Both the position numbers and the translations under genes were made by a program. Positions 6,859-44,717 of a DNA stretch of 44,717 nt are shown piece after piece (the stretch's first letter is position 1; each line of letters begins with the position of its first letter). The stretch covers positions 1-44,717 of the forward strand of contig LOES01000239.1 of the NCBI GenBank assembly GCA_001515955.1. The letters run 5' to 3'. The notes beneath the pieces are model-generated. The model ran no database searches. It was not told the origin of the DNA and worked only from the letters and a program-made list of their open reading frames with translations. Origin of the DNA: Clostridia bacterium BRH_c25 (GTDB taxonomy: Bacteria; Bacillota_A; Clostridia; Lutisporales; Lutisporaceae).

Positions 6859-6941
6859 GCGAGAGTGGCGGAATTGGCAGACGCGCACGTTTGAGGGGCG
6901 TGTGGGAGACCGTACGGGTTCAAGTCCCGTCTTTCGCACCA
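6859..6941 (+). tRNA. tRNA-Leu (anticodon GAG)
   Basis: The 83-base cloverleaf has acceptor arms GCGAGAG and CTTTCGC, discriminator A and an encoded CCA. The anticodon stem CACGT/GCGTG holds the loop TTGAGGG, giving anticodon GAG, which reads CUU and CUC leucine codons. A long variable arm follows, as expected for tRNA-Leu. The T arm reads CGGGTTCAAGTCCCG. A consensus promoter lies upstream and a terminator downstream, so it is a single-gene unit. Confidence 0.96.
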
Positions 6942-10069: not shown

Positions 10070-10092
10070 CAATATGAATTGAACAGCAAAAT

Positions 10093-10290
10093 AGTTCAGG
10101 TGCTTAGCCGGAGGCAACCCCTCCGGACAGCTTAAAAGGGGAAATGGGTTAAAATCCCATGCGGTCCCGCCACTGTAAAAGGGGAGTAGCCTATATATAC
10201 CACTGGAGCTTGTGCTCTGGGAAGGTGTAGGTATACGATGAACTCAAGCCAGGAGACCTACCTGAATTTGAAGCTTACCTACGAGAGATA
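10093..10290 (+). promoter_or_regulatory. Cobalamin (adenosylcobalamin-type) riboswitch
   Basis: The aptamer is closed by TTCAGGT (10095-10101) pairing with ACCTGAA (10259-10265). Inside are the hallmarks of the class: GCCGGAGGCAACCCCTCC, the B12-box-adjacent GCGGTCCCGCCACTGTAA, and AAGCCAGGAGACCT near the 3' end. It lies ahead of a binding protein, ATPase and permease for B12-type uptake, and a terminator follows at 10315. Binding of cobalamin is therefore expected to reduce transcription of the importer. The B-form preferred cannot be read from sequence. Confidence 0.95.
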
Positions 10291-33025: not shown

Positions 33026-33101
33026 TGGAGCTGGAGATGGGACTCGAACCCACGACCTGAGCATTACGAATGCTCTGCTCTACCGACTGAGCTACTCCAG
33101 C
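33026..33101 (-). tRNA. tRNA-Thr (anticodon CGT)
   Basis: The 76-base cloverleaf on the - strand has acceptor arms GCTGGAG and CTCCAGC, discriminator T and an encoded CCA. The anticodon stem GAGCA/TGCTC holds the loop TTCGTAA, anticodon CGT, which reads ACG. The D arm reads TAGCTCAGTCGGTAGAGCA and the T arm GTGGGTTCGAGTCCCA. Its 3' end faces the accessory islet at 31.1-32.9 kb. Confidence 0.96.
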
Positions 33102-35415: not shown

Positions 35416-35420
35416 ATTGT

Positions 35421-35520
35421 CCGCTAGGGGAGCTTTATGCTGAGATAGCACGCTGCGCTTAAATAAGTACAGGTGCTGACCCTTTGAACCTGTCTGGTTA
35501 ATTCTAACGGAGGGAAGCGG
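35421..35520 (+). promoter_or_regulatory. TPP riboswitch
   Basis: CCGCT (35421) pairs with AGCGG (35516) to close the aptamer. The thi-box signatures are present: AGGGGAGC and GCTGAGATAGCA on the 5' half, and GACCCTTTGAACCTGTCTGG then GGAGGGAAGCGG on the 3' half. A terminator follows at 35541, and thiT is the regulated gene. Thiamine pyrophosphate should lower transcription. Confidence 0.97.
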
Positions 35521-35540
35521 TTGTGATTAGTAGATAATCT

Positions 35541-41943: not shown

Positions 41944-43659
41944 GTGAAGAAATATCTTCTAATTATAGCAGCAGCTTTTATAATCGCAGTAATATCGGGA
42001 ATATATATTTTTCCACAGCTTTGGACAACCACCCAATATACTCCTAACGAAGTACACTTTGTTGTTGAGGGAAGCATTGTCAAGGAAGACTATTCGCTGC
42101 TTTTAGAAAATGGACAGCTTTTATTTCCTATCGAAGCAGTACGGAAATACATCGATCCCAAGGTGCATTGGGATGAAAATGCAAGCAAGGTGGTTTTTAC
42201 GACCAAGGATAAGGTGCTTATAATGAAGACTGGAAAACTCACTGCAATGGTAAATTCCCGTCCTGTTGATGTTAATATTCCGGTAAGACTGGTCGAGGGC
42301 AAGCCTTATATACCGATTCAGGTGCTTGACACCATGTTTGGAATAGAGCTTCAATGGATTGAGAAAAATAATGTTGCTATACTTGATTATAAGAAGAATA
42401 CTGTTCAGGTTGCGGTGGTTCAGAAAGACAACAGGATTATGAGGCTTGAACCTGCCTTATGGTCTCCTGCAGTTAAAAAGGATATCGACAAAGGGGAAAT
42501 TCTAAGGATTTTTGGGGAGCATGAAAAATGGTACAAGGTGCGAAGTGAGGACGGGTTCATAGGATACATCGAGAGGAAGCATGTCAAGACTGAGCTTATA
42601 GCTTCCGGAACGGACATAACTGAGCCTTCAGACAGCAGTGTGGCCTGGAAGCCGGAGCAGGGCAAGATAAATATGACGTGGGAATATGTAGGAAGTAAGA
42701 ATCCTGATATTTCGGGACTGAAAAGCATTAATGGTCTTGATGTGGTATCTCCTACCTGGTTCAATATAGTGGACAAGCAGGGAACCGTAGTCAACAAGGC
42801 TGATAATGGTTATGTGAAATGGGCTCACAATAACGGTTATAAAGTGTGGGCACTTGTAGGAAACGGGTCTGACCCGGAGGTCACTCATGGATTTCTCAAT
42901 AATACAGATACAAGAGAGAAGATATATCAGCAGCTGCTGATATATGCGGAGCTTTATGGACTTGACGGAATCAATATAGATTTTGAAAATATATACTTGA
43001 AGGACAAAGACATGCTTACCCAATTCATGAGAGAGCTTACGCCTCTATTAAAAGAACAGGGACTTGTGGTCTCCATAGATGTAACCTTCAGATCTGCAAG
43101 CGAGAACTGGTCCATGTGCTATGACCGGGAGGCTTTGGCCGGAATAGTGGATTATATTGCTGTAATGGCTTATGACCAGCATTGGGCAGCAAGTCCTGTG
43201 GCAGGGTCGGTAGCAGAGTTTGGATGGGTTGAAAGCAATCTCAAAAGGATACTTGAGCAGGTGCCTAATGAAAAGGTTCTTCTGGGGCTTCCTTTCTACA
43301 CAAGGGTATGGAAGGAAGAAACAGTCAACGGTAAGGTGAAGGTGTCTTCTTCGGCTGTATCCATGGGTTCGGTGGAAAAGATACTGTCGGAAAGGAAGCC
43401 TGAAGTCGTATGGGATGAAGAAAGCGGCCAGCACTATGTCGAGTATAAGGTGGGCAAGGTCACACATAAAATATGGATAGAGGATGAGAAGTCCATAAAC
43501 CTGAAAACCTCTCTGGTTCACAAATATGACCTGGCAGGAGCCGCCTCCTGGAGAAAAGGCTTTGAATCAGAGGATATCTGGGTCGTGCTCCAGGACAGCT
43601 TGAAGGTGAAGCAGAATTATACTCAATGGGCTAATGCAAATAGTGTGGCAGCTGATTAG
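41944..43659 (+). CDS. Copper-amine-oxidase-like / SH3 / GH18 domain protein
   Basis: The 571-residue protein has an N-terminal hydrophobic anchor (about residues 4-24). A copper amine oxidase N-terminal-like domain follows (about 40-150; LLFPIEAVRKYIDPKVHWDE, GKPYIPIQVLDTMFGIELQW). A bacterial SH3 domain lies at about 155-220 (KGEILRIFGEHEKWYKVRSE, GFIGYIERKHVK). A glycoside hydrolase 18 domain of the YvbX type fills about 235-550. The GH18 active strand is LDGINIDFENIYLKD, keeping D-x-x-x-D-x-E, and VDYIAVMAYDQHW and GLPFYTRVWKE support the fold. Likely targets are peptidoglycan or chitin-like glycans; related proteins act in spores. The start is a GTG after AAGAGGTG. The gene stands alone, with a structured non-coding element downstream. 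Confidence 0.9.
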   Translation: MKKYLLIIAAAFIIAVISGIYIFPQLWTTTQYTPNEVHFVVEGSIVKEDYSLLLENGQLLFPIEAVRKYIDPKVHWDENASKVVFTTKDKVLIMKTGKLTAMVNSRPVDVNIPVRLVEGKPYIPIQVLDTMFGIELQWIEKNNVAILDYKKNTVQVAVVQKDNRIMRLEPALWSPAVKKDIDKGEILRIFGEHEKWYKVRSEDGFIGYIERKHVKTELIASGTDITEPSDSSVAWKPEQGKINMTWEYVGSKNPDISGLKSINGLDVVSPTWFNIVDKQGTVVNKADNGYVKWAHNNGYKVWALVGNGSDPEVTHGFLNNTDTREKIYQQLLIYAELYGLDGINIDFENIYLKDKDMLTQFMRELTPLLKEQGLVVSIDVTFRSASENWSMCYDREALAGIVDYIAVMAYDQHWAASPVAGSVAEFGWVESNLKRILEQVPNEKVLLGLPFYTRVWKEETVNGKVKVSSSAVSMGSVEKILSERKPEVVWDEESGQHYVEYKVGKVTHKIWIEDEKSINLKTSLVHKYDLAGAASWRKGFESEDIWVVLQDSLKVKQNYTQWANANSVAAD

Positions 43660-43710
43660 TAAAGAACTTTGCTATAGGTAATATAGTAGTATACTCTGAA
43701 GACAAACTGC

Positions 43711-43925
43711 TGAGCAACCATGTCAATAGCCAAAGTATGCTTATACAGAAATTGTTAATGGCTCTTGTGAATGGAGCCTTAGAAACATCCGTATGCGAGG
43801 CAGGACGCCGAGCAAGCCTTAAAGGTCAAGGATGACCATTTTAAGGCGTTAGGATTTTCTTAGGCGAAATGAACTAGTGCCATCAATTTCTGTATACCCA
43901 TATGTGGCTATGACATGGTTGCTCA
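43711..43925 (+). ncRNA. Candidate structured RNA or palindromic element (long hairpin, 215 nt)
   Basis: The ends of this gene-free segment are long inverted repeats. 43711-43762 begins TGAGCAACCATGTCAATAGC, and 43879-43925 ends GGCTATGACATGGTTGCTCA. They pair over about 45 positions with only small bulges and some G-U pairs. Inside, GCCTTAGAAACATCC (43776-43790) pairs with GGATTTTCTTAGGC (43852-43865). Within that is the hairpin GCCTTAAA-GGTCA / TGACC-TTTTAAGGC (43816-43847), next to a purine-rich unpaired stretch GCGAGGCAGGACGCCGAGC. A TATACT (43690-43695) lies just upstream. There is no T-run terminator and no obvious target duplication. The strand is arbitrary because the palindrome is symmetrical, but the + orientation has the -10. 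It could be a non-coding RNA or a miniature mobile palindrome. The rest of 43660-44014 shows only a short hairpin CTGTA / TACAG near 43950. Confidence 0.55.
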
Positions 43926-44014
43926 ATAGATTCTGCTCCTTTATTATCTGTAGTAAATACAGGCAGGTTTTGGTATCATTAGGGTATATTATTAATTGTA
44001 AAGGCTGATGTTGT

Positions 44015-44717
44015 ATGACTGAAAAAAAGGAAATAAGAATATCGGTAAGGGATCTGGTGGAGTACGCTTACCGCTCAGGGGACCTGGATTCGAGATTTTT
44101 CGGAATGAGCAGAGCCCTTGAAGGAGCCAGGCTGCATCAAAAAATCCAAGGCTTGAGAAAGGATAAGGCAGCAGATGGCGGAGAAAGCTATCATAAGGAA
44201 GTAAGCATATCCAGGACAGTAAGCTGCAATGACCTTGCCTTTATAATATCCGGAAGAATAGACGGACTTATCGAAAGAAGCCAGGACATTATACTGGAGG
44301 AAATAAAGACCACCCTGAGCCCCTTGGAGCACATAACTGAGGATACTTATCCTGTGCATTGGGCTCAGGTAAAATGCTATGCCTATATGTACGCATGTGA
44401 ACATGAAGCAAAGGTGGCCGGCATTCAGCTGACTTACTACAATACAGACAGCGGAGAACAGAAGGTGTTTGTTAAGCCCGCGGTAATTGAAGAGCTTGAG
44501 GAGCACTTTATGGGGATACTGGATAAGTATTGCAGTTGGGCTTATGAAATGCATGAATGGAGCGAACTGAGGGACGGCACTATCAAAAAGCTGGACTTTC
44601 CATACAACGAATACCGTAAGAATCAAAGAAAGCTCGCAGTAGCAGTATATAAGACAATAGCCGCCTCAAAGAGGATTTTCATACAGGCTCCTACAGGAAC
44701 GGGAAAGACAATTTCCG
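44015..44717 (+). CDS. PD-(D/E)XK nuclease-helicase fusion, Rad3/DinG-type (3' partial)
   Basis: The frame runs open from the ATG at 44015 to the window end, so at least 234 residues are present and the rest lies outside. The first 170 residues look like a PD-(D/E)XK nuclease domain of the Cas4/RecB type. SVRDLVEYAYRSGDLD comes first, then HKEVSISRTVSC, then GRIDGLIERSQD and IILEEIKTTLSP, which supply the D and E-x-K active residues. HWAQVKCYAYMYACEHE supplies the Q-Y motif. A helicase domain then starts with the Q-motif-like LDFPYNEYRKNQRKLA and Walker A QAPTGTGKT. This order is that of XPD/DinG-like helicases with an N-terminal nuclease domain, presumed to act in DNA repair. The ribosome site (AAGG) is weak. 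Confidence 0.88.
   Translation, partial: MTEKKEIRISVRDLVEYAYRSGDLDSRFFGMSRALEGARLHQKIQGLRKDKAADGGESYHKEVSISRTVSCNDLAFIISGRIDGLIERSQDIILEEIKTTLSPLEHITEDTYPVHWAQVKCYAYMYACEHEAKVAGIQLTYYNTDSGEQKVFVKPAVIEELEEHFMGILDKYCSWAYEMHEWSELRDGTIKKLDFPYNEYRKNQRKLAVAVYKTIAASKRIFIQAPTGTGKTIS

Follow-up and report, generated by a model that had tools for sequence, protein, structure and literature searches.

Clostridia bacterium BRH_c25 carries, between a GH18 protein gene and a further gene downstream, a 213-letter palindromic element (43712..43924, + strand) that is at once a dispersed, MITE-like palindrome and the carrier of a conserved, RNA-like core; positions refer throughout to the window, the whole 44,717-nucleotide stretch of contig LOES01000239.1 that we analyzed. 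The original prediction had offered a structured RNA or a mobile palindrome. Each of these is supported by our results and only the choice between them falls away: the element is a dispersed repeat with empty insertion sites in related genomes, and it encloses a conserved core related to the TwoAYGGAY RNA motif (Rfam RF01731), so both alternatives hold. That this is a repeat element with a TwoAYGGAY-related core we regard as close to certain, and selection on the RNA form of the element as probable. CsrA is put forward tentatively as the partner of that RNA, and the statement taken whole (a MITE-like mobile element with a TwoAYGGAY-type core, and CsrA as its most likely partner) is advanced with the same reserve.

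Borders and fold of the element

The self-complementary, nested-hairpin structure placed at 43711..43925 by the original prediction is real, and its borders were drawn correctly. Folded as + strand RNA, window 43711-43925 reaches -105.3 kcal/mol against a mean of -52.2 for 200 dinucleotide shuffles (z -12.5; 0/200 as good), and BLAST matches in related genomes begin mostly at query position 53/54 and stop at 264/265, which sets sharp borders at window 43712/43713 and 43923/43924. We orient the element by the strand that matches TwoAYGGAY and call its arm family W. No ORF of at least 50 aa overlaps 43712-43924 in the ORF listing, and a consensus scan found no promoter-like site inside the element.

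The outer stem is formed by a left arm (43712..43773, +) and a right arm (43866..43924, +), both delimited by the fold and by covariation across 33 copies; as predicted, the two pair nearly perfectly, almost throughout their length. They enclose a core (43774..43865, +) that forms a three-way junction related to TwoAYGGAY, defined by our alignment A1 with its pair counts, by model R1 and by the RF01731 match. Hairpin 1 (43794..43814, +) has the loop AGGAC, with GGA at 43803-43805 in 32 of 33 copies, and hairpin 2 (43816..43847, +) has the loop region CAAGGATG, with GGA at 43830-43832 in 31 of 33. The stretch GCGAGGCAGGACGCCGAGC, previously described as a purine-rich unpaired core, folds instead into a small hairpin with the AGGAC loop.

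The opposite strand folds almost equally well (-97.3 kcal/mol, z -11.6), with 80 pairs as against 82 on the + strand and 79 common to both, counted over the element and 3 bases on each side. This near-equivalence favors the most serious rival explanation, that the element is plain palindromic mobile DNA whose hairpins serve only transposition, for example as folded single-stranded DNA or in end recognition. In that case the TwoAYGGAY shape would be a handle that the element uses for itself, without any RNA function directed at the host. We consider this rival doubtful but well worth weighing, and return to it below.

Relation to the TwoAYGGAY RNA

A scan of Rfam at gathering score returned nothing at the element. 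With an E-value threshold and relaxed filters, RF01731 surfaced at 43752-43889 as a match to the full model (36.2 bits, E 3.6e-4). The window copy thus stays below the gathering cut-off of 43, and its relation to the family is through members that exceed it: W-family copies at G001:C56 (45.2 bits), G001:C61 (44.4 bits), and G019:C12 (44.1 bits) are over the cut-off. Two members above it, L056 (44.4 bits) and L052 (45.2 bits), each share 77.2% identity with the window copy, measured over 197 and 202 columns, respectively. The two-hairpin, three-way-junction architecture is present in the window copy, with loop 2 (AAGGAT) and loop 1 (AGGAC) departing from AYGGAY; A-N-GGA is found in loop 2 in most W copies. 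The middle of the element is a sub-threshold relative of TwoAYGGAY, a described but unexplained motif. The earlier suggestion that it may be an undescribed RNA therefore does not wholly stand.

A second weak match at the element, Histone3 (14.5 bits), was rejected because it lies far below its own cut-off. Elsewhere in the window, a Cobalamin riboswitch (10081-10279), a TPP riboswitch (35416-35532), and two tRNAs (6859-6938 and 33029-33101) are over their Rfam cut-offs, and at 999-1114 there is an inverted repeat whose 32-nt arms are 81% complementary.

TwoAYGGAY has been in Rfam since 2010 and, to our knowledge, its function has never been demonstrated. Rfam places it in one clan with CsrB (CL00106), and the Rfam 15 article reports two added covarying pairs for it (PMC11701678). 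We found no description of TwoAYGGAY as a mobile repeat in the literature searched, supplements aside.

The insertion site and its empty counterparts

The upstream gene (41944..43659, +) encodes a GH18 protein, as predicted (PF00704, E 2.4e-27). The downstream gene (44015..44716, +), earlier called a helicase, is cut by the window end; the only Pfam match in its visible 234 aa is to a PD-(D/E)XK nuclease (PF12705, E 1e-5). Of the 45 loci that a genome scan with this gene found, two belong to close relatives, each of them a metagenome-assembled genome. In four relatives (G001, G002, G007, and G008) the GH18 gene adjoins the downstream gene without the element, and RF01731 has no match at these empty sites at E up to 0.01. 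Of the relatives detected, G008 stands closest to the window (protein identity 76.9% and 80.7%).

In G008 and G007, the gap between the two genes contains a terminator-like hairpin. Its loop and right arm are retained in the window at 43948..43971 (+), where query 289-333 matches both relatives; its left arm is unrecognizable there. The hairpin may act as a terminator; the consensus scan reported no terminator in the window. Two stretches of extra DNA are missing at the G008 and G007 empty sites: one from the GH18 stop to the element (43660..43711; comparison with L181 and L182), whose approximately 50 nt may belong either to another end of the element or to flanking DNA that has diverged, and one of 23 nt that follows the element (43925..43947). 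From this comparison we read the element as probably inserted into or beside the terminator-like hairpin, with approximate ends.

Dispersed copies and families of arms

With the window DNA as query, BLAST found near-full copies in G008 (17) and G019 (11), and further copies in G001, G002, G005, G006, and G007. The 32 aligned copies are 72.7-86.3% identical to the window copy; of the many near-identical copies named as a sign of a mobile palindrome, the number is thus borne out, the copies being related rather than near-identical. The conservation at one genomic position named as a sign of an RNA gave way to dispersal, the GH18-helicase junction being empty in the four relatives.

RF01731 was matched at E up to 0.01 in 15 of 22 genomes (8 over the cut-off) of a family sample drawn from the Gracilibacteraceae, the family for which one close relative is titled. 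An evenly drawn class sample of 391 genomes contained 38 carriers (26 over the cut-off), 28 of them with at least two matches, and none of 14 control genomes matched. The class search undercounts because its filters were stricter; in G001, for example, it found 7 matches where the family search found 17. Pairs of elements, inverted or in tandem and separated by a few hundred bases, occur at L066, L080/L123, L089, L122, and L112/L124.

The core is common to at least three arm families. Elements of the X family (G001/G005) have ends like GCTGTTGCANAANA...GAAGAATAATGCGACA, those of G374 the ends GATTCGGNTGTCAAAA, and those of G060 the ends TTCGTAATAT. In G060 the end pattern has 33 matches, on one contig of 3,135,972 bases, against 0 for a control pattern; the 30 that were fetched comprise 11 full units of 262-265 nt, 3 deletion forms of 99-112 nt, 8 of other lengths, and 8 without a second end within 1.6 kb. 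In G008, W copies have next to them, in head-to-head arrangement, elements of a more distant palindromic family, Y. Model R1 scores these at 33-41 bits at 7 distinct loci (L165, L168, L170, L171, L172, L174, and L175); in Y elements one loop carries GGA and one is altered. One unit in G001 (L242:1500-1825) joins X-type ends to a Y-like core, as if ends and cores had been exchanged. Neither R1 nor Rfam matches this unit, and it is likeness of sequence that groups it with the G008 Y elements.

The element is short and non-coding, with inverted ends, dispersed copies, and empty sites, as in a MITE; it departs from one in its target-site duplications, which were among the expected signs of a mobile palindrome and which a comparison of flanks found to be absent as a rule. 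With the true ends uncertain for some families, direct-repeat scores of the flanks exceeded the 95th percentile of cross pairs in 3/16 for G008 plus the window, 1/10 for G019, 0/14 for X, 1/7 for G374, and 1/7 for G060. At L185 (G019:C12) a 19-bp hairpin sequence flanks the element on either side as a direct repeat with a single mismatch; this may be a rare target duplication.

No parent transposon or transposase was found at the ends examined in G374, G001/G005, and G060, a few loci in genomes of which only G060 looked single-contig. The G374 end pattern has 7 matches, 5 at elements and 2 within coding frames that look FtsX-like by eye. For G001 and G005 there were 36 and 31 matches, most of them with a mismatch, and at ten loci the ORFs were simply listed; in three long G060 units, no transposase was recognizable by eye. 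These searches also bear on the possibility that the element encodes an RNA, guide or structural, belonging to a transposon system that escaped detection and acting here in trans. It is mobile, structured, and dispersed, and there is a precedent in RAGATH-18 RNA, which has reportedly been proved to serve IS607 TnpB. However, the Rfam searches matched neither RAGATH-18 nor any other transposon RNA family, and no transposase or nuclease gene is linked to the ends at the few loci examined, so we think a guide RNA improbable.

Paired changes, loops and strand

The 33 distinct W cores (L166 and L167, cut by contig ends, were dropped from alignment and counts, and copies of G005, G001, and elsewhere entered the alignment only partly) have changed on both sides at 17 of 30 core pairs. 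None of 500 shuffles reached the core covariation score; four of five measures gave 0/500 and the fifth 1/500, in a test where relatedness alone can exceed shuffles. The paired share, 95.5% in the core alignment, was no higher than 52.8% in the slid controls. Across the element as a whole, at least two Watson-Crick types are seen at 41 of 79 pairs. One insertion is orthologous between G002 and G001, with the right flank homologous up to the element. In it, four Watson-Crick pairs have changed on both sides; one of these changes involves a register shift, its column being also that of a lost pair. This element is identical at 192/208 positions as against 245/307 and 317/374 in its flanks, a difference that might also reflect gene conversion or recent exchange. 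The compensatory changes and the conserved core proposed as evidence for an RNA are thus both observed.

Both GGA loops are kept in 30/33 W copies, and conservation is higher in the GGA loop columns than in the other unpaired columns (0.97 vs 0.86; one-sided p 0.018; 6 vs 44 columns). This loop conservation argues against plain mobile DNA, as does the persistence of the core across families with unrelated arms. Core-less deletion forms also occur as repeats, and movement may thus not depend on the core, a further point against a shape kept for transposition. Plain mobile DNA is favored, on the other hand, by the high number of copies, the inverted repeats at their ends, the deletion derivatives, and the random orientation.

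Selection on a + strand RNA should raise G-U pairs above A-C mismatches. By parsimony, G-U and A-C events number 31:19 in W, 13:11 in X, 10:8 in G374, and 2:2 in G060 (56:40 in total), a weak asymmetry in the right direction; the lack of asymmetry in the young families X and G060 sits well with plain mobile DNA. The earlier argument that G-U pairs in the arms suggest RNA selection is thin, only 3 + strand pairs being missing from the - fold, and keeps a weak backing in these events. A loop count over 50 RF01731 matches, with GGA hairpins in 50/50 forward and 9/50 reverse, carries no weight because the family model itself contains GGA and the count is circular.

Orientation to flanking genes is random over 85 copies: between co-directional genes 23 are sense and 24 antisense, and a further 21 lie in convergent, 13 in divergent, and 4 in one-sided settings, as surveyed with mechanical ORFs and flanks of ~400-3400 nt, an ORF spanning the whole element in 5/85 rows. 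Such randomness argues against any fixed role in cis, and on this ground a sense-only 3' UTR role was rejected. That the element is a cis-acting 3' UTR element or part of a terminator controlling the GH18 gene, to which its sense placement between the GH18 stop and the terminator-like hairpin remnant and the Rfam type label of TwoAYGGAY (Cis-reg) both lend some color, is the least likely of the alternatives and highly improbable, since its site is empty in four relatives, its orientation elsewhere is random, and Weinberg 2010, rating TwoAYGGAY a probable RNA, marks it in its table as not cis-regulatory (PMC2864571).

CsrA and flagellated clostridia

Gardner and Eldai (2014) put forward the proposal that TwoAYGGAY binds CsrA (PMC4333381), which is described as a dimer with two RNA surfaces, CsrB being its GGA-repeat sponge (PMC9037510). 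GGA in hairpin loops, the feature expected of a CsrA-binding RNA, occurs in both loops in the 30 W copies counted above; RF00018, the CsrB/RsmB family, has no match in the loci scanned.

Across the class sample, which omits at least 3 of the 22 family-sample genomes, csrA is present in 33/38 carriers and 92/353 others (Fisher p 2e-13, kinship ignored), and in 25/26 carriers outside the window's family. The 125 genomes with csrA are all among the 142 that are flagellin-positive; inside this group the link to csrA is not significant (33/35 carriers vs 92/107, p 0.24), and it is absent from the family sample of 22 (10/15 carriers vs 5/7 others). The class-sample carriers without a csrA match (G001, G002, G022, G023, and G332) all have FlhA, which makes assembly gaps a possible explanation; that gaps do occur is indicated by G005, which has csrA and flagellin and no FlhA match. 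TwoAYGGAY scores best in G374, where csrA has three matches, of which two are weaker (53 bits). The element is tied to flagellated clostridia, and the data are compatible with CsrA, no more. The strength of this csrA/flagella association across the class counts against plain mobile DNA.

Discussion

We favor the reading in which a short, non-coding palindromic element, with outer arms that vary by family and a middle that keeps a TwoAYGGAY-type three-way junction, would be copied in trans by a transposase encoded elsewhere. In the lineage of the window, one such copy probably inserted between the GH18 gene and the gene downstream. Read-through transcription on the TwoAYGGAY strand could then expose the two GGA loops, which a CsrA dimer might bridge, and the transcript would thereby titrate CsrA; we infer both the transposition in trans and the titration by read-through transcript. 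A bolder extension, which we think unlikely, is that the mobile palindromes of flagellated clostridia are self-spreading CsrA decoys, carrying a two-site CsrA-binding RNA whose core is retained through arm exchange since binding benefits the element or the host. If it were true, transposition itself would raise the dose of CsrA sponge and rewire motility and carbon regulation.

TwoAYGGAY as the payload of a dispersed repeat would explain the patchy spread and variable outer stem of this RNA, and calls for caution before it is taken for an ordinary cis-regulator. The 2014 CsrA proposal becomes testable, by asking whether copy number shifts free CsrA.

The element shares with TwoAYGGAY the full-length model match, the three-way junction, two GGA-loop hairpins, and a variable outer stem, and several copies of the window's W family exceed the RF01731 cut-off. 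It differs in the score of the window copy (36.2 vs 43) and in its AGGAC loop 1, and neither Rfam nor the parts of the papers drawn on here present TwoAYGGAY as a mobile palindrome with many copies; in both it is an RNA motif. CsrB/RsmB (RF00018), of the same Rfam clan as TwoAYGGAY, likewise has GGA in hairpin loops, with many sites in the product of one gene, whereas the W element has two sites and many genomic copies; CsrB/RsmB sequester CsrA, whereas for the W element such binding is predicted. Small palindromic repeats are familiar in bacteria, for example ERIC, RUP, Correia, and BIME. With these and with MITEs the element has in common that it is short, non-coding, and dispersed, with inverted ends, deletion forms, and head-to-head pairs. 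It differs from them in showing target duplications only in single cases, in that the limited searches above detected no parent transposon for it, and in possessing a branched core that is conserved across families with different arms.
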